Of a DNA stretch of 64,000 bases, positions 59,086 through 64,000 are shown one piece after another. Position numbers and translations under genes: made by a program. Source of the DNA: a virus. The notes below the pieces were generated by a model. It was not told the DNA's origin and did no database searches. It saw nothing but the letters and a program-made list of their open reading frames with translations. Within the stretch, counting starts at the first letter, position 1; the number at the start of each line of letters is the position of its first letter. Location of the stretch: the IMG/VR virus record IMGVR_UViG_3300025778_000016, positions 1 through 64,000 of that record; one strand, given 5' to 3'.

Positions 59086-59303
59086 AAACAAGACAATATA
59101 GGGATTTAGAGTCGTTGATAAAAATCAATAAACATTTAGGTATTGCGTTAAATGAAATAACAAAAGTGCATCCTTATGTTGGTAGTTTAAGAGAACAGAG
59201 AACACTTATTAGCGCCAAATTAAAAATAGAAGGAATAATTGAAAGAACATTAAAGGCTGAAAATTTAGCCAAAAGTGATTTTTTCAGAACACTAGAACAA
59301 TGA
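59082..59303 (+). CDS. Small helical protein between gp47 and gp46
   Basis: 73 residues, mostly helical, Leu/Lys/Glu rich: DLESLIKINKHLGIALNEI then LREQRTLISAKLKIEGIIERTLK. It overlaps gp47 and gp46 by 4 nt each, which argues for a real gene. In T4 a short gene (46.1 or 46.2) also sits near gp46. Might bind the complex; no motif proves it. Confidence 0.6.
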   Translation: MKTRQYRDLESLIKINKHLGIALNEITKVHPYVGSLREQRTLISAKLKIEGIIERTLKAENLAKSDFFRTLEQ

Positions 59304-61057
59304 TTATACTAAAAAATATTACATTAAGAAATTTCCTTTCAATAGGAAATGTTACACAAGCAGTAAACTTTGATACTAAAGAACTAACACTTATTCTAGG
59401 TGAAAACTTAGACTTAGGTGGTGATGGCGCAAGAAACGGTACAGGTAAGACAACTCTTATTCAAGGGTTGAGTTATGTGTTGTTTGGAACTCCAATCAAT
59501 AACATTCGTAAAGATAATTTAATCAATCGTACCAATGGTAAGGGTATGATGGTGACACTTGAGTTTAGTTGTAATGGTATTGAATATAAGATTGAACGTG
59601 GTCGTAAACCAAACATATTAAAATTTTATATTAACGATACAGTACAAAGCAATGATGCTCAGGGTGAGAATAGAGAAACACAAGAGCAAATTGAAAAAGC
59701 AATTGGTATGACACCTGATATGTTTAAGCACATTGTTGCGCTTAATACATATAGTGAACCATTTCTAGCAATGAGTGCTAATGATCAGCGTAATGTTATT
59801 GAACAATTATTGGGAATTACATTATTAAGTGAAAAAGCCGATTTGCTTAAAAACTTAATTAAAGATGTAAAAGATAGTATTCAACAAGAAGAATTTAGAA
59901 TACAAGGTGTTGAAGAAGCCAACAAACGTGTTAAAGAACAAATCGAAAGTACCAAACGCAGAAGTGCGTTATGGCAAAAGAAACATGCTGAAGATTTGGC
60001 TAAACTTGCTTTGGCTTATGATGATTTAACAAAAATTGATATTGATGTTGAACTTCAAGCACATAAAGATTTAACTCTTTACAATGAAAAACAAAAGAAA
60101 ATTAATGATTTAAATAAATTAATTACTCGTTTGGAAAGTGACCAAACAAAAGAAAACAAAACTGTTAAAAAACTTTCTAAAGAAATTGAAGATTTAAAAA
60201 ATCATACATGTTATGCTTGTGGACAAGAGTTCCATGATGAAAATCATAATACTGTTTTGTCCGATAAAGAAAAAGCATTAGAAGAGGCACTAGCACAATG
60301 TGAATCTATTGTGTCTCAAATAACTGAACATCAGTCTGAATTAAACAATTTGGGTGAGTTAGGTATTATACCAAAAACACATTATGACACTGAAGCTGAG
60401 GCTGTAATGCATAGCAGTCAGATCAGTAATATATTAAAACAAATTGATAGTAAAAGTGAAGAAACTGATCCATATATTGAACAAATCAGTGAAATGGAAA
60501 GTCAAGCACTTCAAGTTGTAAGTTTTGACAAGATAAATGAATATACAAAATTAATGGATCATCAAAAGTTCTTGTTAGACTTATTAGTAAGTAAAGATAG
60601 CTTTGTTCGTAAAAAGATCATTGATCAAAACTTAAGTTATTTAAACGCAAGACTCACACACTATCTTGATAGAATTGGATTACCACATCAAGTAGTATTT
60701 CAAAATGATTTAAGTGTTGAAATTACAGAATTGGGCCGTGAACTTGACTTTGATAATTTAAGTCGCGGTGAACGCAACAGATTAATTCTAGGTTTAAGTT
60801 TTGCTTTCCGTGATGTATGGGAAAATTTATACTTCCCAATCAATACATTGTTTATTGACGAACTTATTGACAGTGGATTAGACACACTTGGTGTTGAAAA
60901 CAGCATGGCTATCTTAAAAGAAATGAGTCGTAGACGCAGTAAGAGTATTTGGTTAGTCAGTCACAGAGAAGAACTAGCAGGTCGTGTGCCTAGTGTATTA
61001 AAGGTTGTTAAAGAAAATGGATTCACAACCTATAATAGTAGTCATGAGGTACTATGA
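59300..61057 (+). CDS. 46: Recombination endonuclease subunit, gp46-like (Rad50/SbcC type)
   Basis: 585 residues. Walker A is GARNGTGKT at residues 43-51. The coiled coils run from about 190 to 450, interrupted by a zinc hook CYACGQ (CxxC). The signature motif is NLSRGERNRLILGLSFAFRDV, and Walker B is LFIDELIDSGLD. Works with gp47. Length is close to T4 gp46 (560). The stop overlaps the next ATG (ATGA), tying a radical SAM gene to this operon. Confidence 0.95.
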   Translation: MIILKNITLRNFLSIGNVTQAVNFDTKELTLILGENLDLGGDGARNGTGKTTLIQGLSYVLFGTPINNIRKDNLINRTNGKGMMVTLEFSCNGIEYKIERGRKPNILKFYINDTVQSNDAQGENRETQEQIEKAIGMTPDMFKHIVALNTYSEPFLAMSANDQRNVIEQLLGITLLSEKADLLKNLIKDVKDSIQQEEFRIQGVEEANKRVKEQIESTKRRSALWQKKHAEDLAKLALAYDDLTKIDIDVELQAHKDLTLYNEKQKKINDLNKLITRLESDQTKENKTVKKLSKEIEDLKNHTCYACGQEFHDENHNTVLSDKEKALEEALAQCESIVSQITEHQSELNNLGELGIIPKTHYDTEAEAVMHSSQISNILKQIDSKSEETDPYIEQISEMESQALQVVSFDKINEYTKLMDHQKFLLDLLVSKDSFVRKKIIDQNLSYLNARLTHYLDRIGLPHQVVFQNDLSVEITELGRELDFDNLSRGERNRLILGLSFAFRDVWENLYFPINTLFIDELIDSGLDTLGVENSMAILKEMSRRRSKSIWLVSHREELAGRVPSVLKVVKENGFTTYNSSHEVL

Positions 61058-62067
61058 GTCTAGCGCTTTGGCATTGGCATATTGAGATAAGCAGTAAATG
61101 TACATTGCGTTGTCCAAGATGCGCACGAAGTGAAGTGCCTGAAAGTTTAGTCAACACAGAATTAGGTCTTGATTTTTTTATAAAAAACTTTGATGAAAGT
61201 TTTATTAAAAATCATGTAGAAAAACTTACATTCTGTGGTGACGATGGTGACCCCATATACGCACATGATTTTTTAAGTGTGTTAAAGTATTTTAAAAATA
61301 TTAAGCCGAACATCAGCATTGTTATAGTGACTAATGGCGGATATAAATCAAATGATTTTTGGAATGAATGTAGCAACATATTAAATGAATATGATACAAT
61401 TCATTTTAGTTTAGATGGCTGGGATAATGCCAGTAATAATTTATATAGAGTTAATAGTAACTTTGATAGTTCAATCAATGGTGCTAAAATATTAATTGAA
61501 AGTAATAAATGTTATGTAGTTTGGGACGCAATTGGATTTAAATTTAATGAAAACAAACTACGTCACATGAAACAACTAGCAAAGTCATATGGTTTTGATA
61601 TGTTTCAATTAACTAAAAGTACAAAATTTGGTGCCATATATGAACACTATGGCAAAAATGATACATTACAACCAAGTAAAAAATTAATGAGTAGTAGTCA
61701 TAGATTTGAAAGAGAATACACATATTTCACTGAAAGACGACCTAATGAAAGTTTTATGACTACTAACTTGTCACACTATGATAGTGTAGAAAATATAGGA
61801 AATATTAAACCTTTATGTCATATTGGCAATAAAGGATTGTTTATTAACAGCAAGGGAGAGTTTTTCCCCTGTTGCTGGGTAGCTAATAGATATGGTCACA
61901 ATAATAAATTTGTTGACTTAAGCAAAAGCTACAACTTACACAACGTAACTTTACAAAGTGTATTAGATTTAGATTTTTATAAAAAAAATTTTGTTAATGA
62001 TAGTTTTGAATGTAATATTAAATGTAACAAAGATATTGTTACAAAAAATTATGGTACAGAGTGGTAG
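61054..62067 (+). CDS. Radical SAM protein in the replication operon
   Basis: 337 residues. Core motif EISSKCTLRCPRC (Cys16, Cys20, Cys23). TFCGDDGDPIYA holds the place of GGEP, a clear departure. FSLDGWDNASNNLYR follows, and the C-terminal part has CHIGNKGLFINSKGEFFPCCWVANRYGHN, an SPASM-like cysteine cluster. ATGA-coupled to gp46. Radical SAM genes beside gp46 are found in other marine T4-like phages by memory, though function is unknown. Not closely similar to the 10719-16961 group. Confidence 0.8.
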   Translation: MSLALWHWHIEISSKCTLRCPRCARSEVPESLVNTELGLDFFIKNFDESFIKNHVEKLTFCGDDGDPIYAHDFLSVLKYFKNIKPNISIVIVTNGGYKSNDFWNECSNILNEYDTIHFSLDGWDNASNNLYRVNSNFDSSINGAKILIESNKCYVVWDAIGFKFNENKLRHMKQLAKSYGFDMFQLTKSTKFGAIYEHYGKNDTLQPSKKLMSSSHRFEREYTYFTERRPNESFMTTNLSHYDSVENIGNIKPLCHIGNKGLFINSKGEFFPCCWVANRYGHNNKFVDLSKSYNLHNVTLQSVLDLDFYKKNFVNDSFECNIKCNKDIVTKNYGTEW

Positions 62068-62081
62068 GAATATATAAAGCT

Positions 62082-62648
62082 ATGCCAAGTCCACAAAAAG
62101 CAAAAGGTTCAGGTTTTGAAAGAGAAGTCGCAAGATTTCTATCAGACTTATACAATGAATCATTTATACGCGCCCCAGGTAGTGGCGCATATGTGGGTGG
62201 CAAAAACAAAGCTCGTACACAAATATTACATGAAGGACAAATTCGTAGTTTTAAGGGAGATATTGTTCCAGGACAAAGTTTTCCTAAACTAAACGCTGAA
62301 TGTAAAAGTTATGCTGATTTCCCATTTCATTTAGTTTTATCTGGAGAATGTAAAGTTCTTGACGGTTGGCTAGATCAAATGATGGACGTAGCAGAAGATA
62401 ATGATCTTAATGTGCTTTTTATGAAATTTAATCGTAAGGGGCGCTTTGTTGTAGTTCAGACTAAGTATACATGGGTCACAGACCATTTCTTGTATTACAC
62501 TAGTGCTAAACACAAAGATTGGATCATTATCGAATTTGATCACTTTTTTAAGTTTAATAAAGAAATATTTGCGGCATACTCAGGCTCATCAGACACCAAA
62601 TCAAACTCTCACACTTTACCTCTTAATTCAACTCAACAATTAGTTTAA
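62082..62648 (+). CDS. PDDEXK-family nuclease, Holliday-junction-resolvase-like
   Basis: 188 residues from the ATG at 62082. A GTG at 62061 opens the frame earlier but overlaps the previous gene and adds a weak extension. GSGFEREVARFLSDL places the first acidic residue. KGDIVPG and NAECKSYADFPF provide the Asp and Glu-x-Lys of the PDDEXK active site. Such enzymes cut branched DNA or act with recombination proteins. The place after gp46/47 supports a role in replication or packaging repair. No HNH or GIY-YIG motif is present. Confidence 0.7.
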   Translation: MPSPQKAKGSGFEREVARFLSDLYNESFIRAPGSGAYVGGKNKARTQILHEGQIRSFKGDIVPGQSFPKLNAECKSYADFPFHLVLSGECKVLDGWLDQMMDVAEDNDLNVLFMKFNRKGRFVVVQTKYTWVTDHFLYYTSAKHKDWIIIEFDHFFKFNKEIFAAYSGSSDTKSNSHTLPLNSTQQLV

Positions 62649-62984
62649 TCGGGGTTGCCCGATTCTCCTTGAGCAAGCCTGGGAAGCCAGTCGCCTGCGG
62701 ATTCTGGAGTAAGCATGGCATTTTTTTAAATGTCGTGGAACACCGAGGTGGCACTCGACTGAGATTGCGAACCACCAACAAGTCTGTAACTACTATGTAT
62801 TGATGTTACAGAATGTGCGTTGCTGAACACTAGCCCAAAGCTAGCAGATTCACTACAGACCCATAATACTTTACAGAGCAACCGGTGGCGAATAGCAGCA
62901 ACAATAGCTGGCTAGTCGGGGTATATACATCAAAGGATGACGGGCAGGCAAGTTATTTTTTTGGTAGTGCTGTTTAGCACTACC
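62647..62984 (+). ncRNA. Candidate structured non-coding RNA, class not identified
   Basis: No frame of useful length fits here. Stems read on the plus strand: AATCGGG/CCCGATT (62647-62653 with 62658-62664); CATGGCATTT/AAATGTCGTG (62714-62723 with 62728-62737), with two G-U pairs that would be A-C clashes on the other strand; TCTGTAAC/GTTACAGA (62783-62790 with 62805-62812); GTTGCT/AGCAAC (62819-62824 with 62877-62882); CTAGC/GCTAG (62830-62834 with 62840-62844). An alternative pairing ACTAGCC/GGCTAGT (62829-62835 with 62910-62916) competes. TGCCCG (62656-62661) can pair with CGGGCA (62941-62946), closing the whole. It lacks tRNA and tmRNA marks. GOLLD, ROOL and group I intron classes are the ones to test. 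Boundaries are approximate. Confidence 0.5.
62963..62984 (+). other. Perfect 9-bp hairpin GGTAGTGCT-GTTT-AGCACTACC
   Basis: Nine perfect base pairs with a 4-nt loop at the end of the structured region. The T run lies before the hairpin and not after it, so it is not a plain rho-independent terminator on the plus strand; on the minus strand it would be followed by A. Possibly part of the RNA structure or a protection element at its 3' end. Confidence 0.55.
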
Positions 62985-63085
62985 ATGGCTTCTAAGCGGC
63001 AAGTGGTATGCATACCAAGTAAAGTTTTTAAATTTATAATAGATTAAGTTACTGTAAAAGATAAGACCGAACGAAGTGAGGGCTT
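62985..63085. other. Intergenic stretch without a gene
   Basis: Holds a 14-nt perfect palindrome TGGTATGCATACCA (63004-63017), a TATAAT (63035-63040) without a matching -35, and an AT-rich run. Nothing else is seen. The palindrome could be a protein-binding site. Confidence 0.4.
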
Positions 63086-63107
63086 AGACAAACGAAGTTT
63101 GTCTTTT
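63086..63107 (+). terminator. Rho-independent-like terminator, between convergent transcripts
   Basis: AGACAAAC-GAA-GTTTGTCT is a perfect 8-bp stem with a 3-nt loop, followed by T on the plus strand (63104-63107 TTTT). It closes the plus-strand operon and RNA. The minus-strand gp51-like frame ends just beside it, so the stem may also stall the opposite transcript, although no U run follows on that side. Confidence 0.5.
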
Positions 63108-63336
63108 AAAAGAAAGGCATTTGTGTTTTCTTAGTTGTTTCCAAATTACTTTCTATCAATTCATTTAAGGCATTTCTCTCATCACTGGACATATTCAAGA
63201 TATCGGTATATGTAGCTCCACCTCTCATATACCAAGCCATGGTTAGGCAGTTCTTTTTAATGTCCTTGACTTCATTCTCATATCCATCAAAAAGCTTCTT
63301 AATAGCGTCGGGTTTTAAATTAAGAAGCCTTAAACG
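63106..63336 (-). CDS. 51: gp51-like baseplate hub assembly C-terminal frame, probably made by -1 frameshift from gp26
   Basis: 76 codons in the -1 frame relative to gp26, ending at TAA 63106-63108. The frame reads LNLKPDAIKKLFDGYENEV, then CLTMAWYMRGGATYTDILNMS, and finishes ESNLETTKKTQMPFF. The MAWYMRGG and NLExTKKT stretches match, from memory, small gp51-like baseplate assembly proteins in marine T4-like phages. No ATG, GTG or TTG lies ahead of the Met in LTMAW, and the frame is open only back to a TAA inside gp26. A slippery T TTT TTC and a stem-loop sit at the start, so the product is probably a gp26-gp51 fusion. Internal initiation at the LTM ATG giving about 44 residues is the alternative. 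Confidence 0.7.
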   Translation of the reverse strand, partial: RLRLLNLKPDAIKKLFDGYENEVKDIKKNCLTMAWYMRGGATYTDILNMSSDERNALNELIESNLETTKKTQMPFF

Positions 63337-63342
63337 AAAAAA
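63294..63342 (-). promoter_or_regulatory. Programmed -1 ribosomal frameshift signal (slippery site plus stem-loop)
   Basis: On the minus strand gp26 ends GAT TTT TTC GTT TAA. The heptamer T TTT TTC (63342-63336) is in the right phase (X XXY YYZ). After a 7-nt spacer, GCTTCTTAAT (63328-63319) pairs perfectly with ATTAAGAAGC (63303-63294) across a 15-nt loop. This heptamer, 5-9-nt spacer and stable stem is the classical layout of -1 frameshift sites in viruses and tail-chaperone genes of lambda-like phages. Confidence 0.75.
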
Positions 63343-64000
63343 TCGGAAATGTTCAGTGTGAATTTAGTTTGGTATGGATGCTGACAATTAACACAGGTAA
63401 CGTCTAATGGTTTTAGTTCGCCTTCTTCACGAATTGAAGCATTTTGCTCACGTACTGCGTTATATGTATTTTTATCACAATTCAATAAAAATTCTTTGAT
63501 AAAAGTCTTTTCTTTTACAATACCGACTGGTGTTTTAATATAATCAATGGCATCAGTTAATATTTTGATAGTTAATTCTGTTATTTTTTCCAATGCTGTT
63601 TTATTTTTTTGAAGTCTAACTTCATCGCTATCACTTTCTACATAGGCTGTAGAAGTTGAAACATCAAATTGGAACAGACTAATATCAGTCATTTCTTTAA
63701 ATGTAAATGGTCTAAATTTAAAATACAATTCCCCGACATTGTATTCTTTGTCATAATTTCCTGATTTTAAATTCAATAACAATCCAGTTAGGTTTACGTT
63801 ATATTTGCCACTTTCTTCACATTTTGGGCAAACACTTTCAATTTCAAAGTTTTCCCCAGTGCTTGCTGCTTTAATGGCTATAAGTATAGCATCTAAGTCC
63901 ATGCTATTAATTTTCCATGGATCTAACATATTTGGTATACAACTCTTAACGATTTCTACTACCGCAGTTCCATTAAACAATGCGTCTGGAGTTCGTGCTG
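63330..64000 (-). CDS. 26: Baseplate hub assembly chaperone, gp26-like (5' end beyond the window)
   Basis: The frame runs off the right edge (223 codons visible). The TTG at 63980 is internal, since TPDALFNGTAVVEIVKSCIPN continues upstream. Family marks: NGTAVVEIVKSCIPNMLDPWKI, MDLDAILIAIKAAS, CPKC and CVNC as a possible zinc ribbon, and RPFTFKEMTDI. T4 gp26 helps build the central hub together with gp51. The ending LNISDFFV reaches a stop two codons past the slippery site, so a second, longer product is expected. Confidence 0.82.
   Translation of the reverse strand, partial: ARTPDALFNGTAVVEIVKSCIPNMLDPWKINSMDLDAILIAIKAASTGENFEIESVCPKCEESGKYNVNLTGLLLNLKSGNYDKEYNVGELYFKFRPFTFKEMTDISLFQFDVSTSTAYVESDSDEVRLQKNKTALEKITELTIKILTDAIDYIKTPVGIVKEKTFIKEFLLNCDKNTYNAVREQNASIREEGELKPLDVTCVNCQHPYQTKFTLNISDFFV

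Follow-up and report, generated by a model that had tools for sequence, protein, structure and literature searches.

Between the gene for a Holliday-junction resolvase and a convergent baseplate gene of a viral contig lie about 350 bases, and the questions raised by this locus are what they encode and how the product might act. The stretch is part of the window analyzed here, i.e. positions 1 to 64,000 of the IMG/VR record IMGVR_UViG_3300025778_000016, which itself is a 70.6 kb fragment. A first-pass annotation, made from the letters of the window, had proposed an unassigned structured RNA 3' of the replication and recombination operon at positions 62647-62984. Massive covariation among homologues together with the lack of any Rfam match upholds this proposal; positions 62647-63003 of the plus strand encode a structured non-coding RNA, which is a real element and a new RNA class without membership in any catalogued family. 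The structured RNA extends from a hairpin (P0) at the resolvase stop codon to a second direct repeat at 62994-63003, at which conservation between the homologues ends. The 3' end, which had been placed at 62984 before this second repeat copy was recognized, was accordingly moved to approximately 63003.

A conserved protein-coding gene was ruled out as an explanation. Only one of 92 homologues is open across the element in any of the six frames, in agreement with the earlier statement that the region lacks a reading frame, and nothing in the 92 homologues points to a decayed gene, so that this refutation, named in advance by the first-pass annotation, fails. Reading the 3' part (AUGGCUUCAAAGCGG...) as protein was also considered and rejected, as its frames break between members. 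The G+C content is indeed higher than that of the surroundings, at about 0.45, while most of the flanking sequence has approximately 0.28-0.36.

Group I introns, tmRNA, RNase P RNA and SRP RNA have a similar size range, and some of them possess pseudoknotted cores. The search against Rfam, which the first-pass annotation had recommended, was run at different stringencies. At the gathering score neither the 64 kb window nor any of five homologue loci is matched by a model, and in the region 62500-63150 neither GOLLD nor ROOL nor EGFOA was found at E values up to 10. Permissive thresholds yielded only chance matches to sRNAs, except for EGFOA in the phage Phosso, which is discussed below. The Rfam models for RNase P RNA, SRP RNA and group I/II introns gave no match, and ARAGORN detected no tRNA or tmRNA in the 64 kb of the window. 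The earlier exclusion of tRNA, tmRNA, RNase P and SRP is thus confirmed. The likeness to GOLLD and ROOL that had been suggested holds in so far as these, too, are large phage RNAs that are structured, contain pseudoknots and have an unsettled function, but it does not extend to membership, since no Rfam model matches. Many GOLLD members are longer than 800 nt, compared with about 350 nt for the window RNA. Furthermore, the window RNA sits where recombination genes give way to baseplate genes. GOLLD and ROOL, by contrast, frequently occur close to tRNA islands (PMC12286853), which is a common but not a strict feature. No description of the window RNA was found in the literature searched, to which the PA5oct omics study and Weinberg 2017 do not belong.

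Copies of the RNA are present at about 200 viral-contig loci among the matches listed, with some contigs counted twice. Used as a query against IMG/VR, the resolvase retrieved 80 loci, and in 79 of them a match to the RNA lies downstream; at the only exception (L043) the contig ends 123 bases after the gene. When loci were selected by means of gp46, the RNA was present in 77 of 80, corresponding to all 77 that reach far enough. The three other contigs end in the resolvase (L353), just after the resolvase (L410) or 176 bases past gp46 (L354). Scanning for a core pattern of 22 bases returned at least 120 rows and gave further copies independent of the resolvase protein. Each of seven large contigs of 259-525 kb carries exactly one copy of the RNA, and the carriers are therefore jumbo phages; they make up a large clade of myophages. 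A BLAST search of 50,697 phage records with the RNA revealed no homologue, and a 21-base core pattern has no copy in 84,980 cellular genomes. Matches of the covariance model of the window family (R1) outside the slot in SCTP-2 and GAP32 were rejected as weak, and the one in GAP32 overlaps a coding gene. A looser motif scan of IMG/VR (GCGAACC..TGCGTTG) returned almost exclusively noise and was discarded.

The secondary structure was analyzed by comparison of homologues. Mutual-information analysis of 92 non-redundant members with a mean identity of 0.70 was carried out with no prior structure and recovered the stems as well as two pseudoknots. In a separate MAFFT alignment of 57 diverse members out of these 92, the 46 core pairs are 97.9% intact. 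Both sides have changed in 34 pairs and 511 cells, compared with 27.1 pairs and 137.5 +/- 11.4 cells in shuffled alignments, and it was by covariation of this kind that the first-pass annotation had proposed to check the RNA. When the partners were slid by 1-3 columns, 32-42% of the pairs were intact; the structure was derived from the same sequences, and these slid controls therefore favour it somewhat, though not to the extent observed. Within the conserved helices of the 92 homologues G-U cells (185) greatly outnumber A-C cells (35), and the plus strand is therefore the functional one, as had already been concluded from the G-U pairs of the single sequence. Judged from the aligned sequences, the comparative evidence for an RNA structure is decisive and very strong. 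The folding energy of the single sequence was rejected as a proof of structure, as the z-score is modest and stronger on the minus strand (z = -1.6 on the plus and -3.3 on the minus strand). With such an unremarkable fold, a single sequence could not decide whether the earlier reading was right. The 57 diverse members furthermore share 42 invariant core columns, a number which fits RNAs that bind a protein or catalyze a reaction, for which many invariant columns are typical. Since the RNA is found in every informative member of the clade, in single copy and under strong constraint, it is probably needed by the phage. To our knowledge, few RNAs are known as core genes of a virus lineage.

In the structure derived from the alignments, a compact double-pseudoknot core is preceded by a 5' stem module and followed by a 3' tail composed of a first repeat, a stable hairpin and a second repeat, all on the plus strand. 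The P0 hairpin (ATCGGGG/CCCGAT, 62647-62664) overlaps the resolvase stop codon, and a hairpin of at least 5 bp occupies this position in 82 of the 92 members despite varying sequence. It is followed by the 5' module at 62665-62709 (CUCC-UUGAG ... GGAU-CU-GGAG), which combines P1 (62665-62668/62706-62709, 100% paired in the 92 members) with an inner hairpin, and by the P2 hairpin at 62714-62737 (62714-62717/62734-62737), which is 94.8% paired and shows double changes in all four pairs. The core at 62741-62887 is closed by Pa (62741-62745/62883-62887, ACCG/CGGU; 97% paired). A long-range closing helix had been predicted, and Pa is such a helix, although it encloses the core rather than the entire element. 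The Pb hairpin at 62747-62776 (62747-62751/62772-62776) is 99.8% paired with strong covariation. In the Pc hairpin at 62778-62816, nucleotides 62778-62780 and 62783-62790 pair with 62805-62812 and 62814-62816; 99% of these pairs are formed and all eight inner pairs display double changes. The loop of Pc makes pseudoknot 1, in which 62795-62800 is paired with 62925-62930 in all members (100%), with five of the six pairs covarying. Pd, spanning 62819-62882, consists of GUUGC (62819-62823) and GCAAC (62878-62882), is 100% paired with GUUAU/AUAAC compensations and encloses a variable hairpin at 62825-62852 together with a conserved ACUACA...ACUUUACAGAGCAACC segment. Two competing pairings had been noted before. 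CTAGC/GCTAG corresponds to the variable hairpin, whereas ACTAGCC/GGCTAGT is unsupported because the GGCTAGT strand is used by the covarying helix of the Pe hairpin at 62889-62918 (62889-62899/62907-62918; 91.5-94% paired), which is the most variable stem and strongly covarying. Pseudoknot 2 connects 62859-62861 with 62920-62922 (98.9% paired, with double changes).

The 3' tail begins with direct repeat 1 (GGGCAGGCAAGT, 62942-62953), which has the form GGGC(AU)GGCAA. Direct repeat 2 (AAGCGGCAAG, 62994-63003) contains the motif AAGCGGCAA. Between the two lies the GC-rich terminal hairpin UGGUAGUGCU/AGCACUACCA at 62962-62985, written GGUAGUGCU...AGCACUACC, which is 98.9% paired and nearly invariant in sequence. 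A terminator function of this hairpin was rejected, as no U-run stands behind it. The variable base of repeat 1 co-evolves with repeat 2, and the letter is the same in both repeats in most members (G/G 54, T/T 12, C/C 10, A/A 2). Where the two letters differ, in 14 cells, the combination is G with A in 11, as expected if both faced a U. The coupling was quantified by simple Fitch parsimony, with a tree inferred from the remainder of the RNA. Each of the two sites (the third base in the case of repeat 2) has undergone 14 changes, with 10 on the same branch and 9 identical, while control columns that change at least as often (106 in number) reach a maximum of 2 identical same-branch changes. At the other repeat positions there is little or no coupling signal.

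We read the two repeats, from their sequences, as two putative copies of one recognition segment. The main alternative is DNA slippage across the hairpin, which would homogenize the repeats and render the coupling functionless, while the rest of the RNA might still function. Repeats flanking a palindrome are prone to DNA slippage, and identical changes in both copies are in line with it. However, the copies are short (6-9 bases), an insertion of 1-2 bases distinguishes them, and strong coupling is seen at one column only and not across the copy, and we regard slippage as an unlikely origin of the pattern. What speaks against a shared recognition segment is that no column inside the RNA complements the repeat changes, and that no complement occurs at a constant place in the flanks examined. 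The P5 strand, the 5' CUUGAG and the P0 loop were considered as internal partners and dropped, since no column there complements the repeats. The predicted unpaired probability of the repeats is 0.50 and 0.58 compared with 0.42 on average, indicating only moderate accessibility.

The tail could also be understood as part of a self-processing or catalytic RNA, in which the core would be a ribozyme or would recruit a nuclease, the repeats would be cut or joining sites, and the hairpin would be excised or the 3' end trimmed. The many invariant bases and compact pseudoknots of the core, the co-evolving matching sites on both sides of a stable hairpin and the stop of conservation at repeat 2 would all suit such an activity. 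Nevertheless, the RNA has no likeness to any Rfam ribozyme or intron model, and the nucleolytic ribozymes known to us do not require matching sites, so that self-processing appears improbable to a similar degree as slippage.

The slot of the RNA is located 3' of the gp47-gp46 recombination genes and faces a baseplate-hub gene. In the window the upstream operon comprises genes for the late sigma factor gp55, gp47, the SbcC-like gp46 (59300-61057, plus strand), a radical-SAM protein and, directly upstream of the RNA, the PDDEXK / RusA-like Holliday-junction resolvase (62076-62648, plus strand; PF24608, E 6e-24; phrog_244). The convergent neighbour is a T4-type baseplate hub protein (63330-63980, minus strand; PF12322; phrog_150). 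The radical-SAM gene, at 61054-62067 in the window, follows gp46 and precedes the resolvase there as well as in some relatives (L353), while other relatives (L410) lack it. The resolvase is found directly upstream on the same strand in 184 of the 186 listed loci with enough upstream sequence. Another small nuclease-like gene replaces it in L175 (2653-3096) and L188 (6691-7140), where the RNA is kept; for L175, the PHROG matches of this gene are to homing endonucleases. Immediately upstream of the RNA, the window shows no conspicuous promoter. On its 3' side, a AGACAAACGAAGTTTGTCTTTTAAAAG inverted repeat followed by a T-run at 63085-63113 resembles a terminator, and relatives carry CGAGCGAAGCGAG-like repeats at this place.

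As the RNA of the window clade begins at the stop codon of the resolvase and has the same orientation as this gene, it might be a cis-acting 3' UTR, which would stabilize or terminate the gp46-resolvase messenger and separate it from the convergent baseplate gene. This explanation seems slightly more doubtful than slippage and self-processing: 42 invariant core columns are far beyond the need of a stabilizer, the terminal hairpin lacks a U-run, and the RNA persists in L175 and L188 although the upstream gene has been exchanged. Just as doubtful is a replication-origin RNA, whose transcript would give rise to an R-loop or a primer close to the gene that encodes it. The repeats and the hairpin would then serve as origin elements, and the role of the RNA would be comparable to that of plasmid or mitochondrial primer RNAs. 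Its fixed position by the recombination genes and the direct repeats with a palindrome at the 3' end would be compatible with such a role, but the conserved features are RNA pairs including G-U rather than DNA boxes, and we know of no primer RNA with a core like this one.

The reading that we prefer, tentatively and with slightly less than even confidence, is a trans-acting ribonucleoprotein scaffold with two identical segments that bind one shared partner. The RNA would act in trans as an independent transcript, with the pseudoknotted core binding a phage or host protein. Both segments flanking the terminal hairpin would contact a single common partner, which would most likely be a nucleic acid recognized through base pairing and otherwise a sequence-reading protein. 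If the sequence of this partner differs between phages, both segments would have to change together. The matching repeats thereby offer a concrete, mutable prediction of how the RNA meets its partner. Because of the constant slot by gp55, gp47, gp46, the resolvase and the baseplate gene, the scaffold may have a role in the switch to, or the running of, recombination-dependent replication or late expression, which the neighbours suggest without proving it. In the window clade the RNA is probably transcribed together with the gp46 operon and then processed.

Beyond the clade, related elements were found in PA5oct-like contigs. L471 contains the 5' module, in which 37 nt share 97% identity with L175 (E 3.7e-10), and the tail of repeat, hairpin and repeat recurs with CAGGCAAA present twice. 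L445 shows the same CUCNUUGAG...CGGAUCUUGAG layout of the 5' module. At 9505-9750 of L445, a Pc-like hairpin (loop CUCAUUA), a GUUGC/GCAAC stem, a CACUAGA hairpin and a UAAUGAG strand follow in this order, repeating the topology of the window RNA with a 7-bp pseudoknot. In PA5oct itself (L082:3480-4990) about 1.4 kb contain only tiny ORFs and have a TGGTAGAAAAAGA word in common with L471; this stretch is probably a further large RNA of the slot. The stretch is headed by a sequence that agrees perfectly (12/12) with a sigma-70 promoter on the minus strand, which is the expected one, in a scan whose total of promoter-like sites is no higher than in shuffles.

In the isolates GAP32, CBB, BF, 7t3, 121Q and RaK2 an intergenic stretch of approximately 700-840 bp is conserved between genera. 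The same slot is found in 121Q, with the order gp47, gp46, endoVII (minus strand), the stretch, a small gene and the baseplate hub, and in GAP32, which has this gene order with an unnamed baseplate gene; the flanking genes of RaK2 are unnamed. Examples are L533:2829-3664 (Escherichia phage 121Q 326509-327344), L208:5652-6455 and the records L525-L535. The isolate RNA folds into a hairpin whose loop takes part in a pseudoknot, a stem made of GUUGC and GCAAC, and additional helices that cross. These helices covary strongly: they are 97.0% intact, 68 cells have changed on both sides compared with 21.2 in shuffles, and slid structures are 37-46% intact.

The window RNA and the slot RNAs of GAP32, CBB, BF, 121Q, Munch and RaK2 are thus alike in the slot from gp46 to the baseplate hub and, as compared by eye, in a hairpin loop pairing downstream, a GUUGC...GCAACC stem and a crossing helix. 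In addition, matching direct repeats surround a GC-rich 3' hairpin in both, whereas the isolate RNA is larger (about 550 nt) and of different sequence. The repeats of the isolates read CGUCAG, CGUCAAG or CUUCAAG depending on the lineage, each round its own terminal hairpin, and this recurrence of matching repeats with another sequence speaks further against slippage. The covariance model of the window family, run with no filters, and profile HMMs gave only chance-level scores on the isolate RNAs. Sequence models do not link the families, and homology is therefore deduced from slot and topology.

The isolated phages 121Q, GAP32 and RaK2 hence seem to hold an unannotated relative of the window RNA. 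Here the adjacent gene lies on the strand opposite to the RNA, and TATAAT is found just upstream of the RNA in 11 of 12 aligned records. The unannotated slot, the opposite-strand neighbour and the upstream TATAAT argue for an independent RNA gene, which seems to have its own sigma-70-type promoter; the neighbour on the other strand and the promoter-like TATAAT are also difficult to reconcile with a 3' UTR.

In the slot of Phosso, a Sinorhizobium phage of 469 kb, the EGFOA model (RF02955) gives a full-length, sub-threshold match at L083:4421-4550 on the minus strand (29.0 bits, E 0.0017, gathering score 37.7). EGFOA is reportedly one orphan motif from the work of Weinberg and colleagues, 2017. 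The model does not match the window RNA, and in the 11 whole records searched no EGFOA match exceeds the cut-off. EGFOA may be the slot RNA of the Phosso lineage. We consider it an even call whether all these RNAs form one fast-evolving superfamily of core RNAs, with one slot and topology in jumbo T4-like phages, that would work via two co-evolving identical 3' segments. Such a superfamily would comprise the window clade, PA5oct-like phages, the phages 121Q, GAP32 and RaK2 and perhaps Phosso. If it exists, it would represent a type of RNA machine without described precedent and a part of the basic jumbo-phage programme. The likely counterpart in isolated phages makes the question directly testable; these include Sharanji, whose listed host is E. 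coli K-12 MG1655. In the Salmonella phage 7t3 and the Erwinia phages Kaldavass and Hallingskeid, the isolate RNA is covered by small minus-strand ORFs annotated as 'hypothetical protein'.
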